Below are positions 11,053 through 50,447 of a stretch of 64,000 nt of DNA, piece by piece. The notes beneath the pieces are model-generated. The model worked only from the letters and a program-made list of their open reading frames with translations. It was not told the origin of the DNA and ran no database searches. A program made the translations under genes and the position numbers. Position 1 is the first letter of the stretch; each line of letters starts with the position of its first letter. Location of the stretch: the NCBI RefSeq assembly GCF_023897015.1, contig NZ_JAMHFY010000009.1:1-64000 (forward strand). Reading direction: 5' to 3'. The stretch comes from Desulfosporosinus nitroreducens. Lineage in GTDB: Bacteria; Bacillota; Desulfitobacteriia; Desulfitobacteriales; Desulfitobacteriaceae.

Positions 11053-13731
11053 TTAATTCAGGGATGCTTCATTTATATAAACACGGCCTTCATCCCCATC
11101 AACGGTGACGGTCTGACCATCCTGAATGGCCTTCATAACACCTGGCACGTTAATTACACTTGGAATCCCATATTCTCTGGCAACAATTGCCCCATGCGAC
11201 ACATAACCTCCGGTTTCCATTACCACGGCCCCGGCTTTCAGAAACAGAGGAGTCCAACCCGGGTCGGTAGATGGAGCTATCATGACTTCGCCCGGCTGCA
11301 GTTTATTTCCCTCGTCAGGATGATTGATCAACCGGGCTGTGCCCGTGGCTTTACCGGCCGCAGCTCCCACGCCCTGCAAGTAATTTCCTGAGGGAATGAT
11401 AGCAGCTTGGGTACGTGTTGCCTCATTACCCTGGATAATGTCCGGAGGGAGAACTTTCTCATTGGCTTTATGATTTGCGATGCGGTCTTTCACCAGGCTT
11501 TTGAGCCTAATCCCATTCCATTCCCCACCTAATATTGATAATATCTCGGGCCAAGTGCAGAAGAAAATATCGGAGGATTTACGAATAAGGTTTCGTCTAG
11601 CAAAGCGGTCGCCCAACTCAATCGCCAGAGAACGATAGGGTTGTAAAGCCATGACCAAAACCGATTTAGTCATTTCTCGCAATCCTGCCCCCCGCTGGGC
11701 GTCAACAATTGTTTTGTGGATTTCCTCCAGTTTATCAACGGGAAGTAAGGCAGTGATTTCCGCCCAGGCCTGATTAAACTTTTCCTTTTGACGGACTCGC
11801 AAGTCGTCCAGATTGGCAGTGGCCATTGTTGTCCTTATAATATCAAACAGATAGGTAGGGTCTTCCTGCCAGCGGGGATTGATAATGTCCAATTCATATA
11901 CAGTTCTATGACCATATTCTTTTATGAATTTACGAAACGCCTGTTTAAACGGCGAATTTTCCGGAAGCTGTTGTTCCCATAAAAGCGGTAAAAAGGGACG
12001 GTTGTTAAAATATTGTACTGCATCATCATCCTGGCGTGCCTGTTCGGCCAATTCAACCAGGCGATACCCCTGATCGGCACTGGTTATAGAAGCACCTCCT
12101 CCCGCCATCAAGCCGTTGATAACCATGGGGGTCTTGGCACCCATAACCCCAAAAAGATCTTGCATCAGAATTGCCAAAGGCATCCCCCCGGCTCCACTTA
12201 ACCAGGGGTATTTTTCACTATAAGATTTAATGTTTTTACCCAAAGCCTTAAAAATATCTATCAAGGCATGATCCGGCAAAGCTTTAAATCCCTCTTCAGG
12301 CAGATCTTCAAGAGCAACAGTCACTCCGTAAAGGATGTCGGTTACTTTGGCAGCTGTATCCTTAATTAAGGTCATAGTCCGCATGCCGGTTTTTTGCCGT
12401 CTCACACCTGCTTCCCCTTCAAAAGGGTTGAGATCATCGATTTCAATTTCCGGCTGGTGCCCTCCCCAGATAAATGTCAGATCATGAGGTAATGTTCCAT
12501 TACAATCGTAGTGAGCCCAGTATACTGCCGACATATTACAGTATAAGCGGCCGTTAAAGAACCGGGAAAACTGAATTCCATCCGGCACCGGATAGCCGGG
12601 ATCCGAAAAAGTAGTAATCCATATAGTGTCAATGATATCTTTAAGTATTTGTTTATGAAGTGGAGATACGACCATGGGAACCGCATCCCGGTAATTGGCA
12701 TTTGACCACACCGTCGGCTGATTTTTGATAGCCTCGAAAGTACGATCCGGTAAAGTGGTGACCGGGCGGGCTTGAACCAGAACAAAGTCATTGCCGTCAA
12801 AAGCCCATTCTATGTCTTGCGGCTCTTCTCCGTTTCCCAAAGAGTCGAAAACTCGGGTTATCAATTGGCTCAATCTTTTTATATCCTCATCACTTAAAAC
12901 CTGCTCTGACCTTCGACTGCCACTGGAAGCCAGATAGACCCCTCCGTCTTCGCGAGTCTGAGTCAGCCCTGATTTGGAACCTAATTGTTTCATTCTGATT
13001 TCCGGCAGTAAGGTATAGACAGAAGGTGCAACAAAGTAGGTATCAGGCTTTATGGCTCCGCTTACCACGGATTCTCCCAGACCGAAATTGGCATTAATTA
13101 CATAAACATCCCGACGACCGCTCTGAGGGTCACAGCTAAAAGCCACGCCGGCCGACCGGGCCTCGGCCATCTCCATAATGATAACAGCAGGCATCAATTC
13201 GAGGTCGTCTATATTTTGTTTACGACGATAGGCTGCGGCCCTGGGTGTCCACAGGGATGCATAGCAACCCTTGATCGCTTCTGTGATGTTTTCCAGACCC
13301 CTGACGTTAAGGAAGGTATCATGGATGCCGGCGAAGGATGCCTGCCGCGAATCCTCCGCTGAGGCCGAAGACCTGACTGCTACCGCTTTATTATCTAATC
13401 CCTCGGCAGCTAACTTTCCTCGTATGGCTTCTACAGCAGCTGGGGGCAATGTTGCATTGATTATTTGTTCTCTTAAGCGGTACAGTATAGTATCGGCATC
13501 GCCCAGATTCTCACCATTTATCTGGCGGGAGATTAATTTTAGAGAATGACCAAGCTGGTTGTAATCTAAAAAGTCTTGATAAGCTGTAGTCGTTAAAACC
13601 CATCCATAAGGAATCTTAAAGCCATACCGTTCCAGTCTGGATAAGTTCCAAGCCTTTCCCCCCACCATACTGACGCCGAGCTGAAAAGCTTCTCTCCAGG
13701 AAACTACGAAATTACTCGCTCGATTTTGCAT
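11053..13731 (-). CDS. PEP synthase / rifampicin phosphotransferase-like enzyme
   Basis: 892 residues with the order ATP-grasp (PPDK_N; VAVRSSASAEDS near residue 120), a large central domain, then a C-terminal swivelling phosphohistidine domain with His846 in ETGGYVSHGAIVAREYG. It lacks the PEP/pyruvate TIM barrel of true PEP synthases, so a rifampicin phosphotransferase-like dikinase is the better class. Reaction in that class: ATP plus acceptor to phospho-acceptor plus AMP plus Pi. The acceptor here is unknown. It is co-directional with a C45 acyltransferase and TetR, only 31 bp downstream of the acyltransferase, suggesting one operon. Confidence 0.7.
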   Translation of the reverse strand: MQNRASNFVVSWREAFQLGVSMVGGKAWNLSRLERYGFKIPYGWVLTTTAYQDFLDYNQLGHSLKLISRQINGENLGDADTILYRLREQIINATLPPAAVEAIRGKLAAEGLDNKAVAVRSSASAEDSRQASFAGIHDTFLNVRGLENITEAIKGCYASLWTPRAAAYRRKQNIDDLELMPAVIIMEMAEARSAGVAFSCDPQSGRRDVYVINANFGLGESVVSGAIKPDTYFVAPSVYTLLPEIRMKQLGSKSGLTQTREDGGVYLASSGSRRSEQVLSDEDIKRLSQLITRVFDSLGNGEEPQDIEWAFDGNDFVLVQARPVTTLPDRTFEAIKNQPTVWSNANYRDAVPMVVSPLHKQILKDIIDTIWITTFSDPGYPVPDGIQFSRFFNGRLYCNMSAVYWAHYDCNGTLPHDLTFIWGGHQPEIEIDDLNPFEGEAGVRRQKTGMRTMTLIKDTAAKVTDILYGVTVALEDLPEEGFKALPDHALIDIFKALGKNIKSYSEKYPWLSGAGGMPLAILMQDLFGVMGAKTPMVINGLMAGGGASITSADQGYRLVELAEQARQDDDAVQYFNNRPFLPLLWEQQLPENSPFKQAFRKFIKEYGHRTVYELDIINPRWQEDPTYLFDIIRTTMATANLDDLRVRQKEKFNQAWAEITALLPVDKLEEIHKTIVDAQRGAGLREMTKSVLVMALQPYRSLAIELGDRFARRNLIRKSSDIFFCTWPEILSILGGEWNGIRLKSLVKDRIANHKANEKVLPPDIIQGNEATRTQAAIIPSGNYLQGVGAAAGKATGTARLINHPDEGNKLQPGEVMIAPSTDPGWTPLFLKAGAVVMETGGYVSHGAIVAREYGIPSVINVPGVMKAIQDGQTVTVDGDEGRVYINEASLN

Positions 13732-18197: not shown

Positions 18198-18330
18198 CAA
18201 AAAATAAAGCCTGAAAGATACCATCTTGATATCTCCCAGGCTTTTATCCTTCCGTGACACAGCTATAAAACTGTGAGTTCTCTCTTGGTCACAGACCAGT
18301 TAAAACTGCGGAACCCTAGAGAACTTTTAT
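18198..18330 (-). ncRNA. Guanidine-I riboswitch (ykkC class) with terminator
   Basis: On the minus strand the aptamer landmarks appear in order: CTAGGGTTCCG (18309-18319), ACTGGTCTG (18292-18300), and ACGGAAGGATAAAAGCC with TGGGAGA following (18232-18255). The expression platform is a hairpin whose arms start AAAGCCTGGGAGATA and end TATCTTTCAGGCTTT, followed by T-rich sequence, about 15 bases before the RBS. This matches the published ykkC class, which turns on gdx-type exporters when guanidinium is present. No consensus alignment was run. Confidence 0.88.
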
Positions 18331-23952: not shown

Positions 23953-24111
23953 ATGGAGAATATTATAAAACAGCTTGGGCAGACAATCAAAACGGCAAGG
24001 CAAGCAGCCGGATTAACACAGGATATGCTTGGCGAGCGAGCCGATGTAACAGGCCGGTACATAATGGCTTTAGAAAACGAAAGCAAAAAGCCGGGCTTCG
24101 ATGTGCCTTGA
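23953..24111 (+). pseudogene. XRE-type regulator, truncated
   Basis: ATG with AGGAGG gives MENIIKQLGQTIKTARQAAG, then LTQDMLGERADVTGRYIMAL, ENESKKPGFDVP and a stop. It closely follows the N-terminal HTH of the small XRE regulators carried by Tn916-like conjugative elements, which normally continue another 50-60 residues. The break falls at the ~60-bp repeat at 24104-24158, so a recombination at that site truncated it. Confidence 0.7.
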
Positions 24112-24915
24112 GGCGACAAAAAAGATGCCGTTTGAAGCTGGTGGGGCCTTGGCGGCAGAATACTTAACAAAAAGCTTATAAAATTCTCTATAATCTGCAA
24201 CAGCAATTAATTCTTCATCCTTTTTTTGCCCAGCATACACCATTCGTTTAAATTCATATCCTTTATTCTTCAAAGCAATTTCCATAAAACAAAGAAATAT
24301 GCCCATATCAATACTATTATAATACGGACGTCTACCTTCCGGTATCATTGAACGAGCTTTCGTTGAACAATATATTTGAATATCATCGTCCTCACAAAAA
24401 ACACGCCATGGCTGAGAATTACACGAACTTGGCGCATACCTAACTACATTTGCCACATCTACAAAACGTTCGTCATTCCAAATAATCTCTAATTCTTTGC
24501 GTTTTGCTTTCGTATAATCTTTTCTGAATTCTACCGAACGACCTTTACCCAAAGCCAACATAATCACATAATCCAAACCGTCATACTGTTGCTCAGTAGT
24601 TTTCCCCATGCCATACCAACATGCGCCGATATTTTCGGAGGCCATCCACAAATCGAGTTGCTCCAAAACGTATCCAATGTTCAAAAGATAATTCTCTTTT
24701 TTTTCACTGTAAACCAAAAGGCAGTATTCTCCTCGTTTACACGTTGTTTTTTCTCGCTTAACGATCTGATATTTTAGGTTAATGTCATCGACTAAAGGTG
24801 AAAGCTTGTAAAGCTTCTCCTCAATCTTCTGCAATTCCTCATTTGATAACGAAAGTGTATCATCAAAGCGTCTGAACGATTTTCGCTTAAATATCATGTC
24901 ATACAAATCATGCAA
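24070..24915 (-). CDS. Putative TM nitroreductase family protein, copy 2, altered C-terminus
   Basis: Residues 1-235 are nearly identical to the protein at 257-1000 (FKRKSFRRFDDTLSLSNEEL, APSSCNSQPWRVF). After ADYREFYKLFVKY the frame runs into a ~60-bp repeat and a truncated XRE gene, producing an unnatural tail (SAAKAPPASNGIFFVASRH and on) of roughly 35 residues. The original C-terminus is therefore lost. Activity is uncertain. The tail reads the junction repeat antisense, which dates the truncation to the recombination event. Confidence 0.65.
   Translation of the reverse strand: MHDLYDMIFKRKSFRRFDDTLSLSNEELQKIEEKLYKLSPLVDDINLKYQIVKREKTTCKRGEYCLLVYSEKKENYLLNIGYVLEQLDLWMASENIGACWYGMGKTTEQQYDGLDYVIMLALGKGRSVEFRKDYTKAKRKELEIIWNDERFVDVANVVRYAPSSCNSQPWRVFCEDDDIQIYCSTKARSMIPEGRRPYYNSIDMGIFLCFMEIALKNKGYEFKRMVYAGQKKDEELIAVADYREFYKLFVKYSAAKAPPASNGIFFVASRHIEARLFAFVF
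24104..24158. repeat. Junction repeat, copy 1
   Basis: One of four copies of a ~60-bp sequence: tgccttgag, then aaaaaagatgcc, then ttgaagctggtggggccttg. Here it fuses a truncated XRE gene to the second nitroreductase. The other copies are at 28917-28981, 30115-30172 and 50233-50300 (minus). Each copy sits at a junction between unrelated sequences. Confidence 0.6.
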
Positions 24916-25272: not shown

Positions 25273-25893
25273 TTATTTCATGATGATATGATCTTTTAGC
25301 CACTGCCTGAAAAATTGCAGTTGTACATCCGTATGAAAGTAATGTTCGCCATCTTCCATTATCACTAAATCACAATTGTATTGCTTAGCATATGAAGATA
25401 CTACATCAAACTCGCACAATTCATCTTTCGAGCCATATAGAATTGATGTTGGCTTATCCCAATCTTGAATAGGATGGGACTTTACATAGCAATAATAATC
25501 CCAATACAAGATCTGCCCAATAGGCGTTACAATTTCCTTTTCAGTGCTTAACCTATCTTCGCTTATATCAAACCATGTCATCATGTTATTTATAATGCGT
25601 TCCATGTTTACCACAGGTGAAAGAAATAAGCACTGTTTTAACGATAAATTGTAATATGCCAGCAGACTGAAATATGCGCCCATGCTGCAAGCAAATACAC
25701 TTATATTATTTGATATTGATTGAGCATAGTTTATTACTGTATTAAGATCATGAACACAATTTTGAACCTTGCAGGCGTAGGTTTCATTTTTGCGTTCGCC
25801 GTGCTCCGGCAAATCAAAACTAAGCACCTGGCAGCCCATCGGAACTACTTCTTCTGCAAGTATGACGATAACATCATCAGCCTTGTTCGACAT
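25273..25893 (-). CDS. Alpha/beta hydrolase fragment, 5' end frameshifted
   Basis: 206 residues with the nucleophile elbow ACSMGAYF and a late His (EDGEHYFHT), plus an Asp in GSKDELCEF. It is about 65% like the protein at 42094-42804 (by eye). That paralogue has an N-terminal piece, PAILWGEPSDKIF and VHGNMSS, missing here. The same coding sense is present upstream on the minus strand, but one base is off: from the ATG at 25981, overlapping the stop of the oxidase gene by 4 bases, MIKKKLKIK leads in one frame into PAILWGNNSDQLF in another. Without the repair it starts at Met25893 and loses the oxyanion-hole HGN. Probably inactive. Confidence 0.6.
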   Translation of the reverse strand: MSNKADDVIVILAEEVVPMGCQVLSFDLPEHGERKNETYACKVQNCVHDLNTVINYAQSISNNISVFACSMGAYFSLLAYYNLSLKQCLFLSPVVNMERIINNMMTWFDISEDRLSTEKEIVTPIGQILYWDYYCYVKSHPIQDWDKPTSILYGSKDELCEFDVVSSYAKQYNCDLVIMEDGEHYFHTDVQLQFFRQWLKDHIIMK

Positions 25894-25977: not shown

Positions 25978-26397
25978 TCATACGATAAAGTCCTGTGAGC
26001 TAAAATTTGTATAGTACCTGCCACATTGCGCGGTAAATCTCAAAACGCAATAGTCGGGGTCAGTGACTCCCTTCGAGTAGTACATCGTATCACCATCTCG
26101 CCAAATCATTTCCTTGCTCTCCTCATCCTCCATTACTTCCATCGTACCCTTTAACATAGCACCGCGAAAAAACCGCTTGTCGCAAAAATAAATACATGCT
26201 TTGGAATTAGCACGGTATTGAGCCACACGCATGGAAGAAGTATTGGTGGTAAAATAAAAGACCTTGATACCCTCACGCTTTCTTGGTGGCAGCATGGCCT
26301 TTGTGTTCGGAAAGCCGTCTTGGCCGACTGAACTGATAAAAGCAACACTTTGTTTATCAATCAGATTTCCAATAGTTTGTCCTGCGTCCATTAGCAT
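25978..26397 (-). CDS. Pyridoxamine 5'-phosphate oxidase family protein
   Basis: About 139 residues from the ATG at 26397, chosen because GGGAGG lies 7 bases before it (the longer frame from 26493 has no homology). MLMDAGQTIGNLIDKQSVAF and YFTTNTSSMRVAQYRAN are the FMN-binding split-barrel pattern of general-stress or bilin-type proteins; KACIYFCD follows. It overlaps the hydrolase's proposed start by 4 bases. Substrate unknown. It follows an HxlR gene and may be its target. Confidence 0.72.
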   Translation of the reverse strand: MLMDAGQTIGNLIDKQSVAFISSVGQDGFPNTKAMLPPRKREGIKVFYFTTNTSSMRVAQYRANSKACIYFCDKRFFRGAMLKGTMEVMEDEESKEMIWRDGDTMYYSKGVTDPDYCVLRFTAQCGRYYTNFSSQDFIV

Positions 26398-26489
26398 ATG
26401 ATTACCTCCCGTATAACGAAGAATTTTTATATCTTCATAGTAATACGAGAAGGCCCCGCCGTAAATCACCCACTTTTTTGTGGGCATGA

Positions 26490-26849
26490 TCAATCAAGAA
26501 AACCTTTGGCTTTCAAAACATCTTCCATACCGTTTTCTTTCATGAGCTCTATACCAACGCTTTGCATAATTGCTACTGCTTCCAACAACTTTTTACCACG
26601 GTCAGTCAAAGAGTATTCTACTTTTAAAGGATATCCTTTGAAAGACCTCTTATCGATCAAGTTGTAATCACGGAGTTCCTTGAGTTGCTCCAGCAACATT
26701 TTTTGATTGATACCTTTGATTTCCCGCTCAAGCTGAGATAAGGATTTTCCACCTTTACCAAGTTGCCATAGAATAATCGGTTTCCATTTGCCTTTTGTAA
26801 GATCATGCGTTAGTTCCAAAGGGCATGTGTATTCTTCGCGTATTTTCAT
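26490..26849 (-). CDS. HxlR family transcriptional regulator
   Basis: 119 residues: CPLELTHDLTKGKWKPIILW then LGKGGKSLSQLEREIKGINQ and a winged hairpin KVEYSLTDRGKKLL. Cys at residue 9 (TCPLEL) is the usual redox position. It is upstream of the oxidase and hydrolase genes on the same strand and probably controls that unit. Confidence 0.82.
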   Translation of the reverse strand: MKIREEYTCPLELTHDLTKGKWKPIILWQLGKGGKSLSQLEREIKGINQKMLLEQLKELRDYNLIDKRSFKGYPLKVEYSLTDRGKKLLEAVAIMQSVGIELMKENGMEDVLKAKGFLD

Positions 26850-27010: not shown

Positions 27011-27637
27011 TTATTGGATTGAATTCATCAACTCATAAAAACATTCGGATTTATGAGTCCTATAAAGATTATACCAAGCATCTAATGTTTTTGTAGAAAA
27101 CACATCCAAAACTCTCAAGACATGTACTGAGAATTCCAATGGAGCTGTTCCTGAAGCAGTTATCAATTTTCCGTCAGTTACGGCAGACTCCTGTTTATAG
27201 TACTTTTCTCCCGCATAGTTAGGGCAGATCATTTTAAGATATTCCAAGTCATTGCTTGTATGCCATCTTGAATCCAGCAAACCTTTCTGAGCAAGACCTA
27301 TTGTAGAACCACAAATCGCGGCTACAATAATACCTTCCTTTAAACACTGTTCTGCCTTTGACAATATAGATTCATGAATTGTTTCTGTCCATGTATTTCC
27401 GCCAGGTAAAATCAAGGCATCTGTATTTTCGATGCTGCACTCCTCTAGTACAATATCAGGTAATATCTTCAAACCTCCCATTGTAGTAACAGGAGTCTTT
27501 GTAACTCCCACAGTAACTATTTTTGATGGGGTTAATCCTTTCTTATAATATCTTCCGGAGTTCAGTTCAGCAGTTAAATAACCTACTTCACAATCTGCCA
27601 TTGTATCAAATACATAAAGATATACAGCATTATTCAT
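27011..27637 (-). CDS. DJ-1/PfpI family (type 1 glutamine amidotransferase-like) protein
   Basis: About 208 residues from the ATG at 27637, which has GGAGG 8 bases upstream. The nucleophile elbow AAICGST (Cys about 109) follows LILPGGNTWTE, the DJ-1 fold pattern; other members are chaperones, deglycases or amidotransferases. The family YdeA/YhbO branch is the closest by eye. It stands alone downstream of a WYL regulator on the same strand, so that regulator may control it. Confidence 0.75.
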   Translation of the reverse strand: MNNAVYLYVFDTMADCEVGYLTAELNSGRYYKKGLTPSKIVTVGVTKTPVTTMGGLKILPDIVLEECSIENTDALILPGGNTWTETIHESILSKAEQCLKEGIIVAAICGSTIGLAQKGLLDSRWHTSNDLEYLKMICPNYAGEKYYKQESAVTDGKLITASGTAPLEFSVHVLRVLDVFSTKTLDAWYNLYRTHKSECFYELMNSIQ

Positions 27638-27756
27638 TTGCATGTCCTCCACTTTTTAATTTATCAAACGCTAATCAAACATCCATCCATGATAAAGATC
27701 AATGTTTATCTCAATGATAAAACAGCTTCACTGACAACTACTGTCAGTGAAGCTAT

Positions 27757-28719
27757 CTACAATTGATAATATTCCATTAAATCCGATGCAACAGAAACAA
27801 GCTTTTTCTTTAAACTCTGCGGTTCTATTACTTGAATAGCCTTTCCGTAAGTCAGAAGATAATAAGGTACATATGAATGAATTGCTCTTTCGTCAAGTAA
27901 AAAAACTGCTTGATTTGACGTCCGCTCTTTCAGATGATGACCTAAAAACCAATGAATGCACAAATCGTCCAAAGCTTCTGACCTGCCACTGATAATTAAT
28001 GAAACCACCACATCCTTACTTTCTGAATCCGGTAAAAGATTCTGCAAAAAAAATTTCCTGGCAGAAAAGGCTTCAGGCCTTTTAAACATCATTTGCGTCC
28101 TCTTTATCCGAAAAATCCGTTCAACCCGGAAACTACGAATCTCATCCCGTAAATGACAAAATCCAATAATATACCATTTATTGTTCCAATAAATTATTCC
28201 ATATGGGTTAATCACTCTTGGATAGAACTGTTCTTCACTTTTTGAGCGATATTCAATTTCTACAGAATATTCGTTTGCTACAGATTGCTCTAATTCCTCC
28301 AATGCCACTTTCACAGAAGGGGCGATCTCTCGATTTATCACTTCAAAACCGACTAAATGGCGATTAAGAATACTTACCTGTTCTTGATTTGAATACAATT
28401 TCAATTTGTCGGTTGCTCTACTTAAAGCCTCACTAAAGGGGTATCCTGCCTCTCGTGCAAATACGGCAGCATGAAGAAGTGCTTTTTGTTCTTCCATATC
28501 AAAAAACAAAGGTGCTTGGATAAAATTGTTCAGTAAACTATATCCACCGTTTTGACCTGAGTCTGATATAATTGGTACTCCACTGGCGCATAGTGAATCA
28601 ATATAACGGTAAACGGTTCGTATATTTATCTCCAATTTCTCCGCTATTTGCTTTGCAGTTATTTTTGCTCCTGAATTCAGCATCCATAGAATTGCTAGCA
28701 TACAATCGTTTTTTGACAC
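27757..28719 (-). CDS. HTH-WYL (YafY-type) transcriptional regulator
   Basis: 320 residues. N-terminal HTH_11-like: AKQIAEKLEINIRTVYRYID. Central WYL domain with NPYGIIYWNNKWYIIGFCH and RSFRVERIFRIKRT. A C-terminal WCX-like extension follows. WYL regulators sense nucleotides or small ligands in many bacteria. GTG start with AAGGGG before it. It is upstream of DJ-1 and on the same strand. Confidence 0.8.
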   Translation of the reverse strand: MSKNDCMLAILWMLNSGAKITAKQIAEKLEINIRTVYRYIDSLCASGVPIISDSGQNGGYSLLNNFIQAPLFFDMEEQKALLHAAVFAREAGYPFSEALSRATDKLKLYSNQEQVSILNRHLVGFEVINREIAPSVKVALEELEQSVANEYSVEIEYRSKSEEQFYPRVINPYGIIYWNNKWYIIGFCHLRDEIRSFRVERIFRIKRTQMMFKRPEAFSARKFFLQNLLPDSESKDVVVSLIISGRSEALDDLCIHWFLGHHLKERTSNQAVFLLDERAIHSYVPYYLLTYGKAIQVIEPQSLKKKLVSVASDLMEYYQL

Positions 28720-28756: not shown

Positions 28757-28931
28757 AATGCTCGATGTCATCTATAAAACACCTTAAAAAGCGGGGCTAA
28801 GAGATGCACTTTTTAAGTCCAATTTTCGCCCATGTTTTGCCCCAAAACCACAACATCTTGTGGCAAAGTTCCTTATTAACCGTTTTGACCACATTTCGTC
28901 ATCAGTATTACCGTCTCTACATTCCTTGAAC
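28757..28931 (-). repeat. rlmD 3' end and flank, copy A
   Basis: Minus strand carries NVETVILMTKCGQNG stop (stop at 28876-28878), the typical C-terminus of a TrmA/RlmD-type 23S rRNA uracil-C5 methyltransferase. It is followed by about 120 bases, ending tttatagatgacat, that match copy B at 29963-30144 in order and copy C at 31605-31730 less completely. The methyltransferase body is missing. The frame upstream runs into the junction repeat. Confidence 0.65.
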
Positions 28932-28981
28932 GGTCAAAAAAGATGCCGCTTGCCGCTTGAAGCTGGTGGGGCCTTGGTGGC
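28917..28981. repeat. Junction repeat, copy 2
   Basis: ctacattccttgaacggtc then aaaaaagatgccgcttg and gaagctggtggggcc. It contains a small internal duplication (gccgcttgccgcttg). It overlaps the rlmD 3' end (copy A) and precedes the HNH fragment. Confidence 0.55.
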
Positions 28982-29110
28982 ATTGGAACTTTTTTATCAC
29001 TTTTTATTCTGCAACATTGTCTTGCTATTTTCACAAAACTCTTCACCGGAAATATCTCCATAAAATTGCAAGTCAAAAAATCCAGCCTTTCACCTCAAAG
29101 CTTTGCTTCA

Positions 29111-29233
29111 TTAAACAACCGCTTTAATTTTTGCTTTCAGCTCATCAATGCTATAAACTTTGCCGCTAGCCTTTGAGTGAAGTGCTAAATGGCAGTTAGG
29201 GCAAACCGGGCGCAAATCATTTATTGGGTCATT
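29111..29233 (-). pseudogene. HNH endonuclease C-terminal fragment
   Basis: The codons read DPINDLRPVCPNCHLALHSK then SGKVYSIDELKAKIK and stop. CPNCH and the LRPVCxNCH pattern are the conserved end of HNH nucleases. A stop in frame just upstream means the N-terminal domain is gone. Confidence 0.6.
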
Positions 29234-29708
29234 CTATGATTCCCATTAATTATAGCACGCCTAGTTGCTTTACTTTCTTGCATTATGATAATAGGATTTT
29301 TTTCTTTCTCTGCAAAAAGAATATCCCATTTTTCAATCCTGATTTTATTATCTCTCTCATAATCATCTTGATAGTCCTCTGACATAATCGCAAGCAAATC
29401 GCTTATATTTGTAATGCGTAATCCTGTTTTCCAATACGAATTGGAAAGAGCACGTTTGCATCAAATAATTCATCTTTTATATTAATCTTTTCGTATTCAT
29501 CAATACTTGGCAATAGTACTAATTGTCGCCATTTCTTTCTAAACCTATTTAAGTAATAAATTGAAAAAAGTCTTAAGGGATGCTCTCTTTTGAATTTATC
29601 TAAAATACACAATTCATAAGCTGATATGGATTTTTCCATCATTTCCTTATCATGCTGATACTTTTTTAAAATTTCTTCATGTATATAATTTTCTATATAT
29701 GTGTTCAT
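29221..29708 (-). pseudogene. Unknown protein, frameshifted
   Basis: A 101-codon frame (29403-29708, GGAG before the ATG) has YIHEEILKKYQHDKEMMEKS and NVLFPIRIGKQD. The frame then shifts: LRITNISDLLAIMSEDYQDD and FAEKEKNPIIIMQESKATRR continue in the next frame to a stop at 29221. The whole would be about 165 residues. I do not recognise the family. It overlaps the HNH fragment by a few bases, suggesting both are relics. Confidence 0.4.
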
Positions 29709-29986
29709 TGTAAATCTCCGCTCTTTTTCACTTAACGAGGTGGTGATTTAACTAATGTCTAATACCATTAAAAATAATACCACATAAAATGGTTTTCCAA
29801 TAAGAGCCGATCATAATCTTCTCCATAATTTCGAATATCCAATTCAAGATCAGAATGCAAACACGGTTTAAGTTTACCAACCCTGTTACTGATAACCGTA
29901 GGCAGTTAATATTTCTTCCATAAGGAATCCATCATAAATTCATCACTCCTAAAAAAAATCAAATGTCATCTATAAAAAGCCCTAAA

Positions 29987-30026
29987 AAAACGGGTCAAAA
30001 AATGCATTTTTTTGACCCGTTTTTTG
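29987..30026. terminator. Bidirectional terminator in copy B
   Basis: aaaacgggtcaaaaaa and ttttttgacccgtttt are perfect arms around a short loop; both flanks carry A or T runs. It likely ends the original rlmD transcript on the minus strand. Confidence 0.65.
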
Positions 30027-30098
30027 CTCTTTTTTTGCCCCCAAAACGCTATATATGGTGTCCAAACCGTCTTATTTGCCCTTTTGACCACTATTCGT

Positions 30099-30144
30099 CA
30101 TCATTATTACGCACTCCACATGCCTTGAGTGCGTAATAATGATG
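30099..30144. repeat. 17-bp perfect inverted repeat at the rlmD end
   Basis: catcattattacgcact and agtgcgtaataatgatg are exact reverse complements, separated by 12 bases (ccacatgccttg). The left arm is the last codons of the rlmD C-terminus; the right arm is therefore an inverted copy of that sequence. Copy A has a weaker version of the same layout. Confidence 0.7.
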
Positions 30145-30172
30145 CCCGTTAAGCCTGGTACCCCCTTGGCGT
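30115..30172. repeat. Junction repeat, copy 3
   Basis: tccacatgccttgag, then gatgcccgttaagcctgg. It aligns with copies 1, 2 and 4, with mismatches in the middle part. Its left end is shared with the rlmD 3' end. The stretch 30173-30387 is A/T-rich with no gene. Confidence 0.45.
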
Positions 30173-30387
30173 TAGTGTATATTTCCGAAAAATCGCATGT
30201 GAACGCAGTTTTTTTCAGACTCCACTTTCCACCTTTGCAAATTTAGCGCTTCCTGTTACCACTTTCTTCTTGGCAATTCGGCACCTACTTTTTGCTTTAC
30301 AATTCAAATAAAATTGTAAGCAATAAAACCTTCAAAATCATGACATTATAGGACTCGTTTTATTTTGTAAGGACTTGTGAGCTGTTA

Positions 30388-31185
30388 TTAAATTAATCCT
30401 TCTTTAACAAGATAGACGTTATTTAAAAAAAAGGATATCAGGGTTGTATTCTCCCAACCCGAACCAATTGGAACACTTGTATCACGTTGAAGAGTGCTTC
30501 CTAACAGGCTAATTAGTTCTCCGTTTCTGACAAGGTAGAGAGATCTCCCAGAACCCGTCAAAACTGTAGTGCCATCCCACTCTCCGGTCTTGCCATCAAA
30601 TTCAAGAGTATATTGTTTCAGCCTAATTAGTTCATCATTTCGGAAAAGATAGATATACGAATCACCAGGTGCTGTTAATAAAGTAGCATCGGTCCATCCA
30701 GTGTCTTTTCCCTCTTCTTTGAGAGTTATGGCATTCATCTGAATTAAATCATCACCTCTAACAATATAGAGGTAGTGTCCCGAACCATCCATAAGTCTTG
30801 CATCTTCCCAACCTGAATCATGAAGACCAACAGGTTCAAGTTCAAAGTCCAGTTTAATAAGGTTACCATCTTTAATCACAAATATGTGCTGACCATCAGC
30901 ACCAGCAATAAGTTTAGTGTTACTATAACCTCCAACTGTTTTAAGTATTTCGAGTTCAGGGTGGGTTTCCATTTTAATTAGATAATCCCCTATGACCAGA
31001 AAAACATATCGATAATAAGCTAATAATGCAGTTGTGTCCTCCCGTGTTGGGATGCTTTGAACAATATTTGTAAGGTTATTTTGATCGACTTTATATAAGA
31101 TCCCATTTTGTCTTGGTTCAGTTATTAGATTTGTTGCATCACTTGGACGTAAATAAGCCCCTGCTATTGTATCCCTTTTATTCAT
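30388..31185 (-). CDS. Unknown repeat protein, predicted beta-propeller-like
   Basis: 265 residues from the ATG at 31185, which has GGAGG upstream. The protein is made of about five repeats of 42-45 residues, each ending in a strand such as YLYIVRGDDLIQM, YIYLFRNDELIRL or SLYLVRNGELISL, preceded by a GW-containing segment (SGWEDARLMDGSG, TGWTDATLLTAPG, GEWDGTTVLTGSG). This is the pattern of WD- or Kelch-type blades, but I do not recognise the family. No signal peptide. Three 20-bp repeats lie upstream. Confidence 0.55.
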   Translation of the reverse strand: MNKRDTIAGAYLRPSDATNLITEPRQNGILYKVDQNNLTNIVQSIPTREDTTALLAYYRYVFLVIGDYLIKMETHPELEILKTVGGYSNTKLIAGADGQHIFVIKDGNLIKLDFELEPVGLHDSGWEDARLMDGSGHYLYIVRGDDLIQMNAITLKEEGKDTGWTDATLLTAPGDSYIYLFRNDELIRLKQYTLEFDGKTGEWDGTTVLTGSGRSLYLVRNGELISLLGSTLQRDTSVPIGSGWENTTLISFFLNNVYLVKEGLI

Positions 31186-31281
31186 ATGTCTATACACCTC
31201 CAGTAGTTTATATTTTTTTTGATTAATACGCTTTCTTATCTTGACTTTTTTTCTCCAAAATATTCACTACTTTTTTGTTTT

Positions 31282-31360
31282 GATGTAGCTTTGAAATAAA
31301 GTCGTACTGTTTATAAAAAAGATGTACCGTTTTAAAGAAAGTTATACCGTCTTAAACTGT
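31282..31360. repeat. 20-bp tandem repeats upstream of the propeller gene
   Basis: 31301-31320, 31321-31340 and 31341-31360 align exactly in a 20-base register: gtcgtactgt ttataaaaaa, gatgtaccgt tttaaagaaa, gttataccgt cttaaactgt. A fourth, weaker unit lies at 31282-31300. The period of two helical turns places each unit on the same DNA face, and the block ends about 95 bp before the gene start. Likely protein-binding sites. Confidence 0.55.
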
Positions 31361-31489
31361 GGGGGATTTACGTAAATTATCCTGAATTTCGAAAGTACGA
31401 TTCTCTGAAAACGTGAAAAGGGCTCCGAATCTTTGGTAGAATGGTGTTTGTCCAAACAACATCACCCAAAGAGAGGAGCACCCTTTTAG

Positions 31490-31576
31490 GTGAAGTTTAC
31501 CACACCCGTCAGCAAAATCAAGACCGAATTTTCGCTGCGGCATGCAACGAGTTTTGATGTGACCCCCATAAGTTAG
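31490..31576 (+). mobile_element. Possible transposase N-terminal scrap
   Basis: A GTG (31490) with GGAG upstream gives VKFTTPVSKIKTEFSLRHAT and stops after ITPIS-like sequence. The stretch resembles the beginning of IS1380-type transposases, but is too short to be sure. An inverted repeat overlaps its 3' part. Confidence 0.25.
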
Positions 31577-31598
31577 ACTAAAAAATCTAACTTATGGG
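31565..31598. repeat. 13-bp inverted repeat, IS-end pair
   Basis: cccataagttaga and tctaacttatggg are perfect complements around 8 bases (ctaaaaaa). The arm (gacccccataagttaga) resembles IS3-family termini. Similar head-to-head arms occur at 1-68 and 7035-7137. Confidence 0.45.
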
Positions 31599-31669
31599 AG
31601 GTAAGTTCATTTTCAGCTCCTTTTTTGCCCCTTTTTTGTTCCAAAGCCACAACATCTAGTGGTTAAATC

Positions 31670-31949
31670 CTACTTTTTCGCCTCCGAACCACTATTCGTC
31701 ATCATTATTATCGTTTCAACGTGCCCTGTCCACGGAAACATATCCACTGGCTGCACCTCAACCACCTATAGCCCCTGCTCTGCAGTATCCCCAGATCCCG
31801 TGCCAAAGTCCTCGAATTACAGGAGACATAGATGATCTGATCCAGCCCCAATTCCAACAATCGTCCAGCACTCTCCGGTATGCTCCTGCGCGGGGCAGAT
31901 CGATGACGACGATATCTGGACGGTCAGGAATTTGCCGAAAGGTGTCTCA
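31670..31949 (-). pseudogene. rlmD: RlmD/RumA 23S rRNA uracil-C5 methyltransferase, C-terminal relic (copy C)
   Basis: Minus-strand reading, with two frameshifts, gives FRQIPDRPDIVVIDLPRAG, then LLELGLDQIIYVSCNSRTLA and RDLGILQSRGY, then VEVQPVDMFPWTGHVETIIM, ending MTNSGSEAKK stop (at 31670). YVSCNSRTLARDL contains the catalytic Cys region of TrmA-type enzymes. It directly abuts the polC stop codon. This is the native site from which copies A and B were derived. Confidence 0.8.
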
Positions 31950-37799: not shown

Positions 37800-38924
37800 T
37801 TAGGCTATACCCAGTATCCGGCAGCCTTCATTTTTGATGTTTATGGCAGCGTTTATATCTCGATCAATCTCTGCGCCGCAATGCTTACAACTCCAAGTCC
37901 TATCTGCCAGCGTCAACTCCTCATTTATGTTCTTGCAATACCGGCATAGCTTACTGGACGGATACCATTTATCGATGATCACAAGCTGTTTTCCCTGTTC
38001 TGCCAGCTTGTATTCCAAAAATGTTTTCAGCATTCCAAAGCCATTGTCATTCGTTGACTTTGCCAAATTTAAGCATTGTGTCATGTTTCTCATGTTTAAG
38101 TCTTCAATTGCAACAGCGGCATAGGCATTGGCTATCTGCCTTGACAGCTTATGCAAAAAATCCTTTCGTTGGTTCGCTACCTTTTCATGAAGCTTAGCAA
38201 CCTTCTGTCGTTGTTTGTTTCTGTTCTTACCGCCTTTCAGTCGTTTCGATAATTTCCGTTGCTCTTTCTTTAGTTTGGTTTCCGCCTTTCGGTAGAATCT
38301 AGGATAGTCGGAACTTCTTGCCTCGCTATCGATGACGAGTGACTTCGATGAATAGTCTAAACCTAACGTTGACTCGACCGTTGGTGTTATCCGTTCTATT
38401 TTGGCTTCAAACTCAACCAAGATCGCTATGTAGTATTTACCCGTTGATGTTTGGCTGATCGTGGCTGATTTAATAATCGAATTTAGTGGTAACTGTCTGT
38501 GCAGCATAATGCGGACATCTTTCAATTTAGGCAATCGAATGGTTTTGCTATCAATCAGACGGATACTTCCTTTTTGGTTATTCGTTGTGTAGGATTTTTT
38601 ATCCCGATGCTTTCGTTTGAACTTTGGAAATCCGACGGATTTATCCCGGAAGAAATTTTTATAGGCCGTATTTAGATTGAGTTGGGCATTGGCAAGGGCC
38701 AAACTGTCCACTTCTTTTAACCACTCATATTGGTTTTTATAAGAGGCTGGTAAAGAATATTTTTGCTGCTTCAACGCTTCTTTATCGTCTTTATACTGCT
38801 CATAAATCGTTATTCTGTTGGCGAGCATTTGATTGTAGATAAATCGCACACATCCAAAGGTTTTATTAATAAGAATAGCTTGTTCAGAATTGGGATAAAG
38901 GCGATATCTATACGCTTTGTTCAT
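37800..38924 (-). CDS. tnpB: TnpB, RNA-guided endonuclease (IS605 accessory protein)
   Basis: 374 residues with an N-terminal HTH (AYRYRLYPNSEQAILINKTF), RuvC motifs LGLDYSSKSLVID (Asp190), VAIEDLNM (Glu274) and DRDINAAINI (Asp354), and a zinc finger CRYC..CKHCG (Cys327, 330, 346, 349). All three RuvC acids are present, so a functional nuclease is likely; it cuts DNA next to a TAM under an omegaRNA guide. Its start overlaps the tnpA end by 4 bases. Confidence 0.92.
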   Translation of the reverse strand: MNKAYRYRLYPNSEQAILINKTFGCVRFIYNQMLANRITIYEQYKDDKEALKQQKYSLPASYKNQYEWLKEVDSLALANAQLNLNTAYKNFFRDKSVGFPKFKRKHRDKKSYTTNNQKGSIRLIDSKTIRLPKLKDVRIMLHRQLPLNSIIKSATISQTSTGKYYIAILVEFEAKIERITPTVESTLGLDYSSKSLVIDSEARSSDYPRFYRKAETKLKKEQRKLSKRLKGGKNRNKQRQKVAKLHEKVANQRKDFLHKLSRQIANAYAAVAIEDLNMRNMTQCLNLAKSTNDNGFGMLKTFLEYKLAEQGKQLVIIDKWYPSSKLCRYCKNINEELTLADRTWSCKHCGAEIDRDINAAINIKNEGCRILGIA

Positions 38925-39322
38925 AGCTTCTCACCCTGATTTTCAATGTAACGTTTAATAATCTCAATAGGTGCACCGCCCGTCGTAAGCAAACAAAAAC
39001 TTCTTGACCAAAAGTATTCTTTCCAGAGGGACTCGCGTATTTGCGGGTATTCTTTTTTAATCAGTCGGGATGATGCACTTTTATAGGCGTTAATGAATTT
39101 TGATAATTCGCTGTTGGGGTGTGCCTTGAACAGAATATGAACATGATCTCTATCCTGATTCCATTCTTGCAAGGTAATATTGTAGTTGGAAGACACATAC
39201 TCAAATATTTCTTTGAGCCTGTTAGAAATGACTTCATCGATAACGTTTCTACGATATTTAATGACAAGAACAAGATGATAATACATAAGAAATACTGAAT
39301 GATTATTATTATCTAATTCCAT
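38921..39322 (-). CDS. tnpA: TnpA, IS200/IS605 Y1 transposase
   Basis: About 133 residues from the ATG at 39322, with AGGGTG before it; a longer frame from 39352 is open. HUH pair HVHIL (His70/72 of the longer frame) and the catalytic Tyr in KRYIENQG (Tyr135) are intact. It excises and inserts single-stranded DNA at the ends of the element. It is the smallest common transposase type and pairs with tnpB here. Confidence 0.9.
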   Translation of the reverse strand: MELDNNNHSVFLMYYHLVLVIKYRRNVIDEVISNRLKEIFEYVSSNYNITLQEWNQDRDHVHILFKAHPNSELSKFINAYKSASSRLIKKEYPQIRESLWKEYFWSRSFCLLTTGGAPIEIIKRYIENQGEKL

Positions 39323-39490
39323 TGATTTATCACCCTCTATTCTAATTACCACTGATTAGATTTTATCATAGATAGAAGTAACTAATCAATACTTATTTGG
39401 AATAAAATGGCGACAATTCATCTCCCACCTACGCACTCACTATCGTGAGCAAGGAAGCTTAGAGGTGGGAGACTTCTTGTCGCACGTGGT

Positions 39491-50232: not shown

Positions 50233-50300
50233 CATTCTGCTCCGAAAAGGTCCCACTAGGCTCAACCGGCATCTTTTTTGGCCGTTCAAGGCAAGTAGAG
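50233..50300 (-). repeat. Junction repeat, copy 4
   Basis: On the minus strand ctctacttgccttgaacgg then ccaaaaaagatgccggttg and gagcctagtgggaccttttc. It aligns with the copies at 24104, 28917 and 30115. A hairpin (agagaggc..gcctctct, 50297-50334) adjoins it. The open minus frame 50140-50370 reads through the repeat, which I do not treat as a gene. Confidence 0.55.
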
Positions 50301-50447
50301 AGGCGCTATCCCTTGCGGGACAAGGCCTCTCTCTTGCTTTTCCGTATCGGTTTGGGGTATGGTTCAACAAGTTTCCCTATTAAACCGCGCCTTTTGGCCG
50401 CCTCGCTTTCATATATCCGTATTACTTAGTAGGAAAGAAAAAAGACT

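Follow-up and report, generated by a model that had tools for sequence, protein, structure and literature searches.

Recombinase-less cassettes probably accreted in tandem at the 3' end of a second rlmD in Desulfosporosinus nitroreducens

The staphylococcal cassette chromosome (SCC) integrates at the 3' end of the rRNA methyltransferase gene rlmH (orfX), where elements can stand in tandem and some lack recombinase genes, and integron cassettes likewise form tandem same-strand units of one or a few genes, such as those for GNAT proteins, regulators and transporters. In Dehalococcoides, islands are arranged in tandem behind one conserved gene, ssrA, with repeats of its 3' end as boundaries; some carry a CcrB-like serine recombinase, and others that lack this module have been discussed as cis-mobilizable (PMC3146451). 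Streptococcal integrative and conjugative elements (ICEs) and integrative and mobilizable elements (IMEs) use a serine integrase to enter rumA and accrete there in tandem with cis-mobilizable elements (CIMEs), and streptococcal serine recombinase triplets use mutT, traG and hsdM as targets (PMC4701971, PMC5704250). In Dehalobacter, a recombinase-rich island of 100-400 kb ends at the 3' end of rumA, and the authors report that the internal elements of this hot spot could not be delimited (PMC11578063). The window analysed here, the first 64,000 nucleotides of contig NZ_JAMHFY010000009.1 (C95) of Desulfosporosinus nitroreducens, contains a tandem array at the 3' end of a copy of rlmD; rumA is another name of this gene family, and the target is thus common to the streptococcal elements and the window array. 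A literature search found the rumA hot spot and CIMEs described and, among the titles and abstracts listed, no paper on the element ends reported below.

The array is probably best explained by three recombinase-less, CIME-like cassettes that serine recombinases accreted at the rlmD 3' end, analogous to SCC at rlmH. It comprises three tandem head-to-tail elements of ~1.6, 1.2 and 4.8 kb behind a frameshifted rlmD remnant that adjoins polC. Each boundary holds one core, GGCAcGTtGAG, which codes for the H-V-E codons of rlmD, and the sequences flanking it fall into two separate families, a right end (RE) before the core and a left end (LE) after it. The boundaries are listed below (G, C and L numbers denote genomes, contigs and loci; copies 1 to 3 of the rlmD tail belong to elements 1 to 3).

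31710-31949, minus strand: rlmD-2, frameshifted remnant of the C-terminal part, directly behind polC (tblastn with the C31 rlmD; reading frames)
31568-31728, minus strand: LE of element 3, tail HVETIIMMTNSGSEAKK and stop; inner end short (model positions 1-156 of 166)
30113-30171, minus strand: RE of element 3, forming an 18/18 inverted repeat with the next LE
29963-30127, minus strand: LE of element 2, tail HVECVIMMTNSGQKGK and stop
28914-28982, minus strand: RE of element 2, a profile match
28765-28928, minus strand: LE of element 1, tail NVETVILMTKCGQNG and stop
24098-24157, minus strand: RE of element 1, closing the array on its outer side
50242-50301, plus strand: lone RE with core, outside the array, no LE adjoining

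The initial annotation had recognized three minus-strand copies of the rlmD 3' end with shared downstream flanks, and both BLAST and profiles built from other genomes bear this out. A 191-bp copy 1 query including its flanks aligns with copies 2 and 3 at 72% identity each, along 184 bp (E=2.5e-20) and 107 bp (E=4.1e-8), respectively. What the copies share begins ~60 bp ahead of the core in copies 1 and 2 and reaches ~130 bp past the tail codons. Profiles without own-genome sequence recover the three window LEs at 1.6e-42, 4.2e-37 and 3.7e-29 and the REs at 24157, 28982, 30171 and 50247 at E values of 2.5e-17 to 1.4e-12. By comparison, 20 block-shuffled windows, searched with profiles that included the window copies, gave a single LE match below E=1 (0.22) and no RE match. 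The three copies, with cores near 28916, 30115 and 31715, are therefore real and neither chance nor short convergent matches. Only copy 3 has enzyme body upstream, as had been described, and that body is frameshifted. The tail motif originally proposed, HVE[TC]VI[ML]MT[NK][SC]G, holds for copy 2 and is slightly off in copies 1 and 3. Two REs lie beyond that description, namely the closing RE at 24157-24098 (minus strand), which is the fourth boundary and ends the array, and the lone RE (plus strand), a possible scar of an older event or of a rearrangement.

The LE spans ~165 bp after the core in all three copies and provides a new rlmD C-terminus with its stop codon. Specifically, HVE[TSC][IV]I[LM]MT[NK][SC]G and the stop are followed by the stem AACCACTATATGTAGTGGTT, a terminator-like hairpin and a terminal ATAGATGACAT; the copy 1 peptide starts with N and thereby departs from the HVE pattern. 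The RE occupies ~63 bp before the core in copies 1 and 2, where copy 3 has rlmD coding sequence. Junctions of RE and LE are inverted repeats around AAGGCACGTT, with a mean of 11.0 of 18 matching arm positions in 17 junctions (shuffled mean 5.6, maximum 6.9), as expected of a recombinase site; the window junction at 30.1 kb matches at all 18. The RE itself is non-coding, in that upstream open frames of at least 80 codons accompany only four of 59 distinct REs, one such frame being the nitroreductase open reading frame (ORF) of the window. This count gives no support to the idea that the RE is the 3' terminus of an integrase gene. Separately, an inverted repeat, CCCATAAGTTAGA...TCTAACTTATGGG, lies at 31560-31600, exactly where the LE of element 3 breaks off, and we take it to resemble insertion-sequence ends.

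How does this locus compare with the systems described above? The likeness to SCC lies in the 3' end of an rRNA methyltransferase gene, the tandem elements and the recombinase-less members, and the recombinases of relatives are nearest to CcrB, CcrC and XisF. The target there is rlmH and here rlmD, those recombinases score 107-127 bits against cut-offs of 375-900, and there is no ccrA, ccrB or ccrC near the array in the window's genome. Tandem same-strand small units also recall integrons, from which the array differs in its ends and target; PF00589, the integron integrase family, has no match on C95. The published system most like the array, through its module-less members, is that of the Dehalococcoides ssrA islands (PMC3146451). 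Those islands use ssrA and a 20-bp repeat in another host group, whereas the present elements use rlmD, a 165-bp LE and a 63-bp RE, and the window contains no tRNA or tmRNA gene. In the streptococcal rumA ICE, one attachment (att) site is located within the serine integrase gene (PMC4701971), in contrast to the non-coding RE. In the features tested, the predicted anatomy fits the definition of a CIME (PMC5704250): att-like repeats, here the core, LE and RE that mark the four boundaries, delimit the elements at one specific gene, and there is no integration gene, with no PF00239, PF00589 or PF07508 match on C95.

The gene behind which the array lies is a second, dead rlmD remnant beside polC and not the working gene. 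The initial annotation had recommended a search for an intact rlmD, which stands at C31:12013-13221; it is the sole own-genome match above the family cut-off and 96% identical to the rlmD of Desulfosporosinus lacus. Behind it are core sites at 11186, 7162 and 6269, two of which scored as RE. In 13 further genomes of the genus, the polC end is complete to the C-terminus and >=90% identical, and of these only G001 shows an rlmD remnant in the 1.5 kb visible behind polC. This is the same rlmD-2 remnant, 88% identical to the window at the DNA level up to the core (window 31716), where the homology stops and a different tail begins. The polC matches of D. lacus (G019) are in several pieces on C27, C34 and C13, which may reflect duplicated fragments or an artefact of assembly. 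The own genome holds a third rlmD 3' remnant, at C17:9205-9342 (L002, L029), and the tail family of this remnant is the one that precedes a serine recombinase gene in G040 and G053.

Comparison of relatives shows that rlmD tails are replaced at the core. In three close genomes, rlmD is 93-97% identical over the 150 bp before the core and 64-74% over the 80 bp after it, which is background level for an aligner that gives 70 +/- 5% identity on reversed sequence. Ten rlmD loci with the window-type LE resemble one another more in their tails (mean 0.81) than in their gene ends (0.74), a contrast that indicates exchange at the core. For 15 similar rlmD genes, mean identity falls from 0.80 before the core to 0.72 after it; a preset cut of less than 0.55 after the core, reached by none of 104 pairs of these genes, proved useless, as it lies below the 0.70 background. 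In several relatives, the LE forms the 3' end of an rlmD gene that is 35-74% identical to the own rlmD.

These data bear on two other accounts. A segmental duplication of the rlmD 3' end through homologous recombination would be in line with copies that are direct repeats on one strand, and is nevertheless very improbable: the RE is not rlmD sequence, and past the core the copies depart from the C31 rlmD and resemble LEs of other genera about as closely as they do one another. Alternatively, LE and RE could be a dispersed repeat or a transposon-like element similar to the rlmD end, with only occasional landings there, for which the several own-genome copies away from rlmD speak. Since the LE extends the rlmD reading frame in 11 distinct loci and rlmD homology breaks at the same codons, this too is improbable, though somewhat less so than duplication.

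LE- or RE-like DNA is present in 36 of 150 relatives, with at most five candidates scored per genome. This distribution, together with homology that ends at the core, upholds the earlier proposal of repeated site-specific integration at the rlmD 3' end, each event bringing the last codons. Eight genomes contain 77 RE and 45 LE matches at E<=0.01, some of them weak, and the own genome contributes 20 and 11. Clustering of tails covered 137 core sites, with some loci counted twice and four rlmD hits without a recognisable core dropped. The window-type LE family accounts for 31 of these sites, 17 after an RE and 14 after rlmD, the latter being 11 distinct loci because three contigs are in twice. 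Several tail families recur on rlmD genes that differ greatly in identity; apart from the window's own family, at least six do so (L084-L163). This pattern suggests that several element families use the rlmD site, although exchange need not account for every tail, some of which may be inherited. Among 80 named rlmD loci, a full LE is the gene's own 3' end in six and a partial or weak one in three, an RE lies in the available flank in three, and the rest have neither in the flank or an LE elsewhere.

Read on the minus strand, the array runs from the rlmD-2 remnant through LE, a 269-aa ORF and RE, then LE, a broken HNH-like gene and RE, and finally LE, six genes assigned by Pfam and the closing RE, beyond which lies other DNA. 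The cargo is as follows, all on the minus strand.

30388-31197, minus strand: 269-aa ORF carried by element 3, unmatched in Pfam, PADLOC and NCBIfam
29114-29708, minus strand: broken gene of element 2, a 101-aa ORF (29403-29708) and an HNH-like piece (29114-29233) in other frames
27757-28719, minus strand: WYL regulator, first cargo gene of element 1 (PF13280 and PF08279)
27011-27652, minus strand: DJ-1/PfpI protein, second cargo gene of element 1 (PF01965)
26490-26849, minus strand: HxlR regulator, element 1 (Pfam)
25978-26493, minus strand: PNPOx-like gene, element 1 (Pfam)
25273-25893, minus strand: alpha/beta hydrolase, element 1 (Pfam)
24070-24915, minus strand: nitroreductase ORF, element 1, running into the RE (Pfam)

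The 101-aa ORF is without a match in Pfam, PADLOC and NCBIfam, and the HNH label, for a piece without an NCBIfam match, is a reading of the letters only. Transfer families were absent from the ten window proteins and a second protein set scanned, which did not cover every short frame. A profile search for a degenerate RE that could divide element 1 between DJ-1 and HxlR found none. Elsewhere in the window, an IS200-like transposase gene (PF01797) lies at 38921-39352 (minus strand).

The initial annotation attributed the small size of the elements to loss of their interiors, a claim that is not established. Decay is apparent in element 2, with its broken HNH-like gene, and in element 3, with its short LE inner end. 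In element 1, the WYL and DJ-1 frames are both open, and this pair is reused as cargo in four other arrays with differing neighbours. The own-genome contig C43 has a decayed WYL and an RE just after DJ-1, and in G012 the pair is flanked by an rlmD fragment and an RE. In D. lacus an RE immediately precedes the pair, and D. hippei has it after an LE, with WYL in pieces. Furthermore, boundary spacings of ~0.6-6 kb are common in the arrays examined, alongside longer ones, and the related arrays examined have cargo between the copies. Together with the open, recurring WYL-DJ-1 pair, these spacings mean that small size alone is not a sign of decay. Other units, in D. lacus and G003, carry GNAT, MFS, HipA-like, PhzF, GGDEF, nitroreductase and two-component genes. 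In G040, 13 REs and 8 LEs (E<=0.01), mostly on the plus strand, extend over ~320 kb around the rlmD at 1465692 (C1, 1.39-1.71 Mb), a very long island.

The units might instead be large conjugative elements whose interiors were deleted and that were never mobile as small cassettes. This is a possibility of some weight, albeit an unlikely one, as large LE/RE-bounded elements exist in G043, G048 and G053, a gene of element 2 and the LE of element 3 are damaged, and CIMEs are thought to arise by ICE decay (PMC5704250). Independent deletions, however, would not be expected to yield the many ~0.6-6 kb spacings of D. lacus, G003, G040 and G043, nor the occurrence of the WYL-DJ-1 pair, enclosed by such ends, in five arrays whose neighbours differ.

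The large elements of these three relatives also provide candidate recombinases. Each contains a serine-recombinase set, which in G048 encodes proteins of 235, 561, 299 and 550 aa. Between this set and the RE, G048 carries Eco57I-type restriction genes and a Gabija-like pair of OLD-TOPRIM ATPase and UvrD-like helicase, and G053 carries ABC-3C genes, the RE there being a partial match; in G043, McrBC genes stand behind an LE. A SIR2-like reading of the gene behind the G043 LE was dropped, with no match in Pfam, PADLOC or NCBIfam. A recombinase triplet lies between an LE and the next detected RE in four elements (G043, G048 and two in G053), and a fifth triplet, in G008, has an RE ~12 kb downstream. 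All seven genomes with the 299-aa subunit at >=66% identity contain LE/RE DNA (base rate 36/150, P=2.8e-5, kinship ignored), as do nine of 12 with this subunit at any identity. Although CcrB, CcrC and XisF are the nearest NCBIfam models of the two large G048 recombinases, the scores lie so far below the cut-offs (113 and 127 bits for CcrB, cut-off 900) that these are not Ccr proper. In addition, a single large serine recombinase (LSR) gene, open and 419 aa long, begins ~140-150 bp after rlmD in G040; a broken one begins at this distance after an RE in G053, and D. lacus also has a broken one. These elements have another LE type, and the RE is therefore common to them and to window-type elements.

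Several observations weigh against the accretion of cassettes by serine recombinases. C95 has none of the three recombinase families named above, and the own genome holds one 525-aa LSR off this contig, plus fragments, and no triplet. LE/RE DNA is also present in G003, which has LSR fragments only, and in G012 and G025, which have no PF07508 match. Six of 11 triplet loci lack an RE in the fetched stretch; four of these meet a contig end within ~10 kb downstream, and the other two, with no contig end, have a 299-aa subunit that is only 28% and 47% identical. LE or RE copies without an adjoining rlmD occur at C17:49400, on C52, C57, C19 and C34, and at window position 50242, and neither an excised circle nor a strain pair with and without one cassette was seen. 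Finally, a tyrosine-recombinase fragment, a 162-aa ORF, ends ~50 bp from the RE at C31:11186. This last observation would favour movement of the cassettes by a tyrosine rather than a serine recombinase, a rather unlikely alternative, in that relatives of this ORF at the other array loci tested amount to one weak partial match, in G003, and that among the PF00589 matches listed for G043 none falls between the LE at 1314907 and the RE at 1345238. With no recombinase on C95 and the own LSR elsewhere, the window array was most likely fed from outside, or is now frozen.

Under cassette accretion, each element would be built as core, LE, cargo, RE and core behind the decayed second rlmD. An inserting element would recombine at the core, that is, at the H-V-E codons, and the LE of the newest element would become the rlmD 3' end, with its last codons, stop and terminator-like hairpin, thereby pushing the older end outward with each insertion. 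Three such rounds would leave the four boundaries, with a presumed order of insertion. We infer that large serine recombinases carry out the recombination, which may be either the Ccr-like gene set of the large elements in relatives or the single LSR behind rlmD.

By its look, the LE would end transcription, and it possibly holds a promoter from which cargo transcription might start. The hexamer ATAGAT is kept in 38 of 40 LEs, with a -35-like hexamer (at least 4/6 matches) in 25 of these 38 compared with 15% in shuffles; the LEs, however, are related to one another, and an ORF of at least 60 aa starts within 150 bp of the LE in only 16 of 40. RNAalifold on 25 LEs gave 13 pairs, two with changes on both sides, and supports one stem (column pair 72-79; UA 15, AU 8). 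The terminator-like hairpin is absent from this consensus, and the LE was rejected as a conserved fold. It was likewise rejected as a known RNA family, since an Rfam gathering scan of the window, L071 and L081 returned only a guanidine-I riboswitch (RF00442, 79 bits; window 18231-18330, minus strand).

Beyond this group, an Enterococcus faecalis plasmid contains a full LE (L217 7979-8138) and a weak RE (E=5.6e-5), which precede ant(6), sat4, aph(3')-III and erm(B). Eighteen Escherichia coli plasmids match 51 bp of RE and core at 84%, and in the one examined (L218 2991-3051) RE and core lie upstream of TetR, hydrolase and mph(B) genes. The occurrence of these ends beside resistance genes is a lead only. 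Phage records gave no LE or RE match, and five contigs of a viral collection contain an LE.

The 3' end of rumA/rlmD was already known as a hot spot, and the two end sequences now delimit its elements from sequence alone; they also offer a way to delimit the elements of the Dehalobacter hot spot. Many units prove to be small once delimited in this way, and one cargo is shared by several species. Should the cassettes be moved in trans by a serine recombinase, environmental Bacillota would possess an SCC- or integron-like exchange system, with traces next to known resistance genes on plasmids from gut bacteria. More tentatively, and with the odds somewhat against it, Bacillota may share an rlmD cassette-exchange platform, in which Ccr-like serine recombinases would act in trans on standard-ended, recombinase-less cassettes and assemble them into integron-like defence and adaptive arrays, with the plasmid scars hinting at a past supply of resistance genes to other hosts.

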